Below are positions 2,985 to 9,527 of a stretch of DNA of 64,000 nt, piece after piece (position 1 is the stretch's first letter; each line of letters starts with the position of its first letter). The position numbers were made by a program, and so were the translations under genes. Origin of the DNA: Planctomycetia bacterium (GTDB lineage Bacteria > Planctomycetota > Planctomycetia > Gemmatales > HRBIN36); contig JAEUIE010000036.1 of NCBI GenBank assembly GCA_016795155.1, positions 62,001 through 126,000 of the forward strand, read 5' to 3'. Under the pieces are notes generated by a model. That model saw only the letters and a program-made list of their open reading frames with translations, was not told the origin of the DNA and ran no database searches.

Positions 2985-3470
2985 TCACTTCGACTTGGTG
3001 ATTTCCTCCTTGATGTTCATTAACTCAGCTGCTTCGGCACGGAAACGGCGAAGTTCTTCGTCCTTGGGCATGTTCTTGTCCATCCAAAGTACCGCCTTGT
3101 CGTACCACTTCCGGGCTTCGTCTTTGTGCCCTAGTTGCCAGTTGGCCATAGCGAGGAAAAACCAATTAAAGCTCTTGTGACTAGACATGAGATCAAGTGA
3201 CTTCTCCAGTGCGGTGACAGACCCTTTCCAGTCCCCCGTCCGGTAGAGTGCTGTGCCAAGAGTATTCAAGACTATTCCGTCATTTGGTGCTATTTCAACT
3301 ACCTTCCTGGCCAGTTCGACTGCCCGGTTTGGATTACGGAATTTTGTGTCAGGCCATGTGGCCAAGTACCAGGCCAAGTTGTTGAGAACCATCGGATTTT
3401 TGGGATTAAGTCGAATGGCTTCAGTGTAAGAAGCGTTGGCGACATCCATCAATCCCATTGCAGCATACAA
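2985..3470 (-). CDS. TPR tail fragment of a broken kinase-TPR gene
   Basis: This is the C-terminal TPR part of a planctomycete kinase-TPR protein and it has lost its frame connection to the kinase. It begins inside a TPR unit ([12 protein letters not shown]), continues with [17 protein letters not shown], and ends with a [15 protein letters not shown] tail. Comparable tails occur at the C-terminus of many Gemmataceae kinase-TPR proteins. The nominal ATG at 3470 lies inside the 3' end of the kinase fragment and there is no separate promoter. Translation as an independent protein is therefore doubtful. It is best read as the distal half of a pseudogene together with 3449-4321. Confidence 0.75.
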
Positions 3471-4321
3471 GGAGCCGCGCGCAACACTCCCAGCGAATAG
3501 ATATCGCTTCGGGTATCGACTCCCAGAGCATTCATCTCTGCCTGCTCGGGACTCATGTATTCCAGGGTGCCGACCATGGTTCCAAAATTGGTGAACAACG
3601 TGTGCTCGGACAGTTTCTGATCAATCGCCTTGGCGACACCGAAGTCGATGACTTTCGGCACCGGCTTGCCATCGTAGAGGGTGACCAGCACATTCGACGG
3701 CTTGATGTCCCGATGGAAGATGCCTTTCTGGTGTGCATGCTGAATCGCCTGGCACACCTGCACGAATAACTCCAGCCGTTCACGTGGTGTCAGGTGGTTG
3801 TCATCACAGTACTTAGTGATGGGTACGCCGTTGATCAGTTCCATGACGAAGTAGGGGCGGCCTGAATCAGTTGTCCCGCCATCAATCACCCGCGCAATGT
3901 TGACATGATCCATCATCGCGAGTGCTTGGCGTTCTGCTTCGAAGCGGGCGATGACCTGGCGACTGTCCATGCCCGGTTTGATGATCTTCAAGGCTACTTT
4001 GCGTTGAACCGGCTTCGTTTGCTCAGCCATGTAGACAACGCCCATGCCTCCTTCACCAATCTGCTGCAGGAGTTTGTAAGGGCCTATGATGGTGCCTGCA
4101 TGTTCATTGGCGGCATCGGAATCAACGGTTCTGACCAATTCTGAAGGAGGGGTTTCAAGAAAACTCTGATGTTCATCAAAGGCTTTGATCAAAGCCTGGA
4201 GATGTTGGAGAAGTGCGTGATCATCGCCACACTTTTCCCGAAGAAAAGCCTGCCGATCCTCGGGTGAGGTTATTCGCCTGGCAGCTTCAAAAATGGCCTG
4301 ATCATCAACGCTCACTGTCAT
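3449..4321 (-). CDS. Truncated Ser/Thr protein kinase (proximal half of broken kinase-TPR gene)
   Basis: A Hanks-type kinase of 290 residues with a glycine loop (GEGGMGVVY), the VALK lysine strand, the catalytic HRDIKPSN loop, DFGVAK and the SPEQAEMN activation-segment end. The sequence then runs DIYSLGVL and leaves the kinase family with ten unrelated residues before a stop. Helices after this point, the membrane anchor and most TPRs seen in the intact paralogue at 56989-59874 are absent. The break coincides with the start of out-of-frame TPR sequence. The gene lies about 105 bases downstream of an ECF sigma factor gene, the usual planctomycete pairing. The missing C-lobe makes an active kinase unlikely. 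Confidence 0.85.
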
Positions 4322-9141: not shown

Positions 9142-9260
9142 GCATTAAGACTAACTCAGAAGAACTCGATTCCCAAGAGATTTTTCAAGGAGTAGCGAAA
9201 ATGGTTTTTGGCATCACGGAAGGTGTATGCTAGACTACAACAACTCGAAGCAGCGGTTCT

Positions 9261-9527
9261 ATGAAGTACTTATCCCTATTCATCGTAACACTTTGCATCA
9301 ACCTTGCACTCTGTCAGTCGAGTGTCAAGGCCGCAGGTTGACGGGATGGCCAATGTGAAACAGTTGTTTCACCCGAAGAAATGCAACAAAGACAACAAAA
9401 CAAGATGCTGTTCTTCGGTGGGATAGGGATCGCTATCGTAGGAGCTGGGTTGTATCAGTTCTTCAAAGACGCCTGGACAGCCAGTTCGAATACCAGCCGA
9501 CAACGGCAGCCGTGGGATTTGCCATAA
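9261..9527 (+). CDS. Small signal-peptide/membrane protein with in-frame TGA (selenoprotein candidate or nonsense mutant)
   Basis: From the ATG at 9261 the frame encodes a secretion-signal-like N-terminus (MKYLSLFIVTLCINLALC) and then AAG before a TGA at 9339-9341 (codon 27). The same frame continues without another stop to TAA at 9525, giving RDGQCETVVSPEEM, a Q-rich stretch, a transmembrane segment (MLFFGGIGIAIVGAGLY) and a polar tail ending WDLP. Reading through gives 88 residues, with TGA in the position of a Cys or selenocysteine and a Cys five residues later. Alternatively two fragments of 26 and 48 residues result, the second starting at ATG 9381. No family is recognised. A hairpin at 9355-9372 fits bacterial SECIS geometry. 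Plain nonsense mutation from TGC or TGG is equally possible. Confidence 0.45.
9355..9372 (+). promoter_or_regulatory. SECIS-like hairpin after in-frame TGA
   Basis: Perfect 7-bp stem GTGAAAC/GTTTCAC closing a four-base loop AGTT. Twenty bases separate the TGA (9339-9341) from the loop, and the loop has G at its second position followed by T. Those are features described for bacterial SECIS elements. The hairpin is seen directly; its function is inferred, and short perfect hairpins also arise by chance. Confidence 0.35.

Follow-up and report, generated by a model that had tools for sequence, protein, structure and literature searches.

A small membrane selenoprotein family, apparently undescribed, in the planctomycete order Gemmatales

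Introduction

Small membrane proteins that carry selenocysteine (Sec) are familiar from eukaryotes: SelK and SelS are small single-span membrane selenoproteins in which Sec lies near the C-terminus, in a flexible end on the cytoplasmic side. In bacteria the insertion of Sec depends on a hairpin (SECIS) located downstream of an in-frame UGA; that of Escherichia coli fdhF contains a bulged U17. The fdhF hairpin is small, lies directly after the UGA, and is bound by SelB; its loop presents G23 and U24 (PMC8659212). Published rules for bacterial SECIS (bSECIS) elements specify a loop of 3-9 nt with G among its first two bases, a stem of 4-16 bp, a loop 16-37 nt after the UGA and a minimum free energy (MFE) at or below -7.5 (PMC13188914).

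A 2026 catalogue covers 119 prokaryotic selenoprotein families, among them small, domainless hypothetical proteins with a conserved UGA and a SECIS (OS_HP3, GOS_B, DG, DW, DF and the CC/Se motif); it holds no family of the kind described here and mentions neither Planctomycetes nor Gemmata (PMC13188914). A 2016 analysis of planctomycete selenoproteins reports Sec machinery in G. obscuriglobus, and the selenoprotein passages of its main text name no such protein. Elsewhere in the open literature (subscription papers and preprints being outside its scope) nothing was found on such a family. Here we describe a small gene with an in-frame TGA whose homologues point to an apparently undescribed family of membrane selenoproteins.

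Results

A short frame interrupted by TGA

The window (the whole 64,000-nucleotide stretch of planctomycete DNA analysed) contains a frame that runs from ATG 9261 to TAA 9525-9527 and is interrupted by TGA at codon 27 (9339-9341). These coordinates, and the frame obtained by reading through the TGA, are exactly those given in a first-pass annotation, as re-reading of the sequence confirmed. The features of the locus are as follows.

9261..9527, + strand: putative selenoprotein gene, 88 codons plus TAA (open reading frame and homologues)
9261..9335, + strand: signal-peptide region, codons 1-25 (predicted from hydropathy and (-3,-1) residue counts)
9339..9341, + strand: TGA, codon 27, very probably read as Sec (28 of 29 members share the TGA in the alignment; the other has Cys)
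9342..9345, + strand: CGGG beside the UGA, predicted to form a lower stem with CCCG at the hairpin's base (RNA fold)
9354..9356, + strand: TGT, Cys 32, partner Cys of a U-x4-C pair (alignments, spacing counts)
9355..9372, + strand: SECIS hairpin GUGAAAC[AGUU]GUUUCAC, apical loop 9362-9365, GUU being Val codon 35 (homologue comparison)
9408..9464, + strand: predicted transmembrane helix, residues 50-68 (hydropathy; a model of low confidence, pLDDT 62, has a helix at 38-81)
9498..9524, + strand: conserved C-terminal motif R-x-R-x-P-W-[ED], here RQRQPWDLP (alignments)

With TGA translated as U, the product is an 88-residue protein, MKYLSLFIVTLCINLALCQSSVKAAGURDGQCETVVSPEEMQQRQQNKMLFFGGIGIAIVGAGLYQFFKDAWTASSNTSRQRQPWDLP. 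From N- to C-terminus it comprises a predicted signal peptide, Sec (within AAGURDGQC), Cys, a predicted transmembrane helix and an Arg-rich tail ending in RQRQPWDLP.

The TGA is conserved among homologues

A pattern search of GTDB contigs returned no close relatives of the window protein, and whole-genome profile searches were needed. A BLAST-type search of 100 related genomes yielded 11 relatives of the read-through product, 10 of them with an internal TGA; profiles built from the relatives were then run against the order (102 genomes), a class sample (398) and a phylum sample (392), giving 29 solid members, all from the single order Gemmatales. By contig identity, Gemmata sp. IIL30 is among the member genomes, and this is what identifies the order. 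Neither convincing members nor Cys homologues were found beyond the order in the class and phylum samples. Weak profile hits (E 1e-3 to 1e-2, and those of the phylum search) look like signal-peptide or helix noise and were set aside.

The read-through product thus has 28 homologues in Gemmata's order, spanning 19 genera and two families with the window's own counted. The aligned in-frame TGA is retained in 28 of the 29 members; in the remaining one (G069, sequence AG-C-CRGRC) it is replaced by Cys, and TGG or an unrelated codon is never found. This count, which answers the suggestion that homologues be compared at codon 27, leaves out one doubtful weak match (G080, locus L067, G080:C62:4180-4473). 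That gene has a signal peptide, a membrane helix and a REKEPWER end, carries neither Sec nor Cys at the site, and may be a descendant that has lost Sec or may have no relation to the family; two genes that G045 also possesses are found close by, in a different order.

Identity to the window protein is often only 20-30% (20-35% in many members), and the most conserved point of the alignment is the Sec position, together with the nearby Cys and the C-terminal P-W-[E/D]. In the part after the TGA, the close pair G020/G056 differs by eight synonymous changes and one non-synonymous change (dN 0.006, dS 0.187); the signal of selection is weaker in a second close pair, G045/G028 (dN 0.04, dS 0.13). 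The frame stays open as far as the PWE/D end, and that dN is below dS in close pairs argues that the sequence following the TGA is maintained as protein under purifying selection.

A single TGA in a small unannotated frame would, in one genome, look just like a pseudogene in which a Cys or Trp codon has mutated to TGA, or like a sequencing error; nonsense mutation was the plain alternative named at first. The occurrence of TGA at the same codon in 28 species of 19 genera, in independent assemblies, excludes it, and both the selection seen after the TGA and the compensated hairpin described below speak against it; we put its chance at practically nil.

A covarying hairpin follows the TGA

The hairpin in the window begins 13 nt after the TGA, its loop begins 20 nt after it, and its seven pairs are perfect: the position, the AGTT loop and both spacings had been given correctly at the outset. 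A 62-nt stretch of the window folds with an MFE of -9.1 kcal/mol. With its AGUU loop, 7-bp stem, 20-nt spacing and this MFE, the hairpin agrees with the published bSECIS model, a positive answer to the SECIS check proposed at the outset. Taken alone, however, the fold is not unusual relative to shuffled sequences (z -0.14; P=0.056 for synonymous-codon shuffles), and Rfam contains no family matching the region. Since the window hairpin alone does not exceed chance, the case for a SECIS depends on the comparison of homologues.

A tetraloop of the form R-G-U-Y (GGUC, AGUU or GGUU) is found at the homologous place in 26 of the 28 TGA members, nearly always on a stem of 5-7 bp; the loops of the other two are AGGU and CGUG. 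Measured from the TGA, or from the second one in genes that have two, the loop lies 20-38 nt downstream; the range reflects length changes between Sec and the hairpin, while the reading phase is constant and GUY is a Val codon. Nine members have a spacing of 38 nt and so exceed the published range of 16-37 by a single base (PMC13188914). Stem sequences vary widely (GUGAAAC/GUUUCAC, CGGGCU/AGCCCG, AACGGC/GCCGUU, CGAGCC/GGCUUG and others). Nevertheless, when the hairpins of 27 members (18 distinct) were aligned, 94.4% of cells were paired, compensatory changes were present at all six pairs (30 such cells), and no slid register was as good. In 500 shuffles the real alignment was never equalled for pairing, for covariation score or for the count of compensatory cells, although the members are related by descent and such statistics overstate their independence. 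When synonymous codons were shuffled with the protein kept, all 27 hairpins were stronger than the shuffle mean (mean z -1.5; the combined value is approximate for the same reason).

In the Cys homologue the hairpin is lost: the homologous stem is interrupted and the best structure reaches -1.2 kcal/mol, as against -4 to -14 in Sec members. The loss bears on a further explanation, namely that TGA here codes for a standard amino acid, through a reassigned code or through SelB-independent read-through to Trp. In favour of such a reading, the frame is uninterrupted both before and after the TGA. But TGA terminates some of these same genes (G083, G010), which speaks against a simple reassignment of the code; where TGA is replaced, it is by Cys and never by Trp; and the hairpin is conserved where TGA is present, gone where Cys replaces it, and accompanied by Sec machinery. 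We regard decoding as an ordinary amino acid as very improbable indeed.

Three members (G045, L043/L092; G028, L061/L093; G076, L039/L088) have two in-frame TGAs, at both Sec/Cys positions. Each has a single AGUU hairpin, placed exactly 20 nt from the second TGA, whose loop is 47-50 nt from the first; there is no start codon between the TGAs and no conforming hairpin for the first. If both TGAs are read as Sec, a single SECIS would reach beyond the accepted range.

Selenocysteine machinery in the genome and the order

All four components whose presence was to be checked are found in the genome from which the window comes: selA (564 bits), selB (402 bits), selD (365 bits) and tRNA-Sec (70.7 bits). 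selA adjoins selB (G000:C59), tRNA-Sec lies on G000:C5 and selD on G000:C12. The selD gene (L101, G000:C12:77743-78672) has an in-frame TGA of its own, in the motif CAGUAGK, followed at 33 nt by a conforming SECIS-like hairpin, CGCAG[GUA]CUGCG; judged by its sequence, the SelD protein encoded here also contains Sec.

Across the 102 genomes of the order, a tRNA-Sec match is present in 89 and selB in 86, and every one of the 28 TGA members comes from a genome with at least one of the two, selB or a strong tRNA-Sec match. This co-occurrence is consistent with Sec use but is no proof by itself, because the Sec trait is common in the order. In some genomes (G032, G034 and G041) the search found neither selB nor tRNA-Sec; one of these, G034, is 10.1 Mb and 100% complete, which suggests that the Sec trait has been lost in some genomes of an otherwise Sec-using order.

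A probably exported protein with Sec predicted near its mature N-terminus

Counting back from Sec, position -4 is Ala in 21 of 28 members and position -2 is Ala or Gly in 26. An A-x-A followed by a small residue and Sec matches the (-3,-1) rule for cleavage by signal peptidase I. On this pattern the mature chain is predicted to have Sec at about its second position or, in the window protein, perhaps at its third. A lipoprotein (lipobox) reading of A-G-U was rejected, the position three before Sec being mostly not hydrophobic. In most members a Cys or a second Sec follows 3-10 residues after Sec at a spacing that varies; exceptionally, Cys comes directly after Sec (one member) or directly before it (two). 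This head is followed by a variable linker that contains the SECIS, a single hydrophobic helix, and a tail, basic in most members, with R-x-R-x-P-W-[E/D]. The signal peptide and the positive-inside rule together suggest a topology with Sec outside and the tail inside.

A single-sequence AlphaFold model of the window protein shows, at low confidence, two helices, the signal helix and one long helix; this arrangement, and the lack of any domain match, led us to reject a thioredoxin fold around UxxC. Twelve members scanned against NCBIfam and Pfam profiles gave no match (best E 0.004-1, the listed scores being far below the cut-offs), and the PDB contains no relative.

Genomic neighbourhood

The window gene is surrounded by genes for UvrB, a helix-hairpin-helix protein, an FHA protein, a PQQ-propeller protein and a metallophosphoesterase. 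The FHA gene lies 24 nt downstream and is not conserved beside homologues; indeed no neighbour is shared among members beyond close relatives, and the surroundings offer no functional clue. A promoter-like match at 9208-9236 is no better than expected by chance. Elsewhere in the window (2985-4321, - strand), a Ser/Thr protein kinase frame (3449-4321) stops matching its domain at position 186 of 263, and its out-of-frame tail overlaps a TPR-repeat-like frame (2985-3470) in another frame; it looks like a kinase-TPR gene that has been broken by frameshift or deletion, or misassembled.

The neighbourhood is relevant to the possibility that the gene is a selenium-controlled switch, in which UGA mostly stops translation, the short product or leader is what matters, and read-through acts as a sensor. 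In its favour, the part before the TGA is nothing but a signal peptide, and some members have two TGAs. However, no conserved downstream gene is there to be regulated, and the Cys, transmembrane helix and PWE/D tail beyond the TGA are conserved under purifying selection; a switch is therefore improbable.

Discussion

The first-pass annotation proposed a new, very small selenoprotein, and this proposal draws support from the TGA/Cys pattern of the homologues, the covarying hairpin and the Sec machinery of the genome. We give a probability of about 95% to the following reading: SelB with Sec-tRNA would recode UGA 27, directed by the hairpin whose R-G-U-Y loop lies 20 nt downstream (20-38 in relatives), and translation would run on through the Cys, the transmembrane helix and the conserved PWE/D tail. 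The signal peptide would then export the protein and be cleaved one or two residues before Sec, leaving a protein that spans the membrane once, its Sec/Cys pair outside and its short basic tail in the cytoplasm; we consider this course of events likely on the evidence of the residue patterns.

What the exported pair does is a more tentative matter. At a little under even odds, the Sec-Cys (or Sec-Sec) pair would form a membrane-tethered periplasmic redox site, cycling between selenol/thiol and selenenylsulfide, the likeliest task being reduction of peroxides or disulfides, or delivery of reducing equivalents to a partner that the PWE tail would bind. This role rests on the general chemistry of Sec, because the genes have neither conserved neighbours nor a homologue of known function; a redox role outside the membrane is favoured by the near-absence of Cys forms and by the pairing of Sec with Cys. 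The main alternative, likewise drawn from chemistry, is that the protein is a genuine selenoprotein whose Sec/Cys head binds a metal (through the N-terminal amine, Sec and Cys) or mercury. A mature chain that has Sec at roughly its second position and, in most members, a Cys 1-7 residues later recalls the nickel hook of Ni superoxide dismutase, a four-helix bundle with the mature N-terminus His-Cys-x3-Cys. Yet the spacing ranges from adjacent to 7, position 1 is not His, and no metal-related neighbours are conserved; metal binding is unlikely, and membership of the Ni superoxide dismutase family was rejected for want of His1 and on grounds of variable spacing, size and architecture.

The family shares with other bacterial selenoproteins the in-frame UGA, the downstream hairpin with G-U in its loop, the SelA/SelB/SelD/tRNA-Sec machinery, a Cys homologue and a partner Cys (UxxC or Ux4C). 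It is unlike them in being dominated by Sec (28 Sec to 1 Cys), in having no known domain, in being a very small exported membrane protein, and in its nine 38-nt loops and the three genes in which a single hairpin accompanies two UGAs. Its SECIS resembles that of fdhF in size, position and loop G-U, but has an R-G-U-Y tetraloop whose R and Y covary, mostly as G/C or A/U. None of the NCBIfam models of the small hypothetical proteins in the catalogue matches any of the 12 scanned members. SelK and SelS are likewise small single-span proteins with Sec in a flexible end, but in the Gemmatales family Sec would lie at the mature N-terminus, outside; there is no relation in sequence and the likeness is one of analogy.

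Whether the family is almost exclusively a Sec family, with Sec as the second mature residue providing a membrane-tethered periplasmic selenol, and with variants in which the one SECIS, 20 nt after the second UGA, acts in addition on a UGA that precedes its loop by 47-50 nt, beyond the accepted bacterial range, we hold to be an even call. Such proteins have probably been missed: they are very short, are cut at the UGA by gene callers, and lack the usual pool of Cys homologues. The covarying hairpins constitute a natural data set on the planctomycete SECIS, with an R-G-U-Y loop, a free stem, a spacing of 20-38 nt and loss of the structure upon change to Cys. The near-exceptionless use of Sec in so tiny an exported protein points to a job that Cys does poorly, set in the cell envelope of bacteria known for their unusual membranes.
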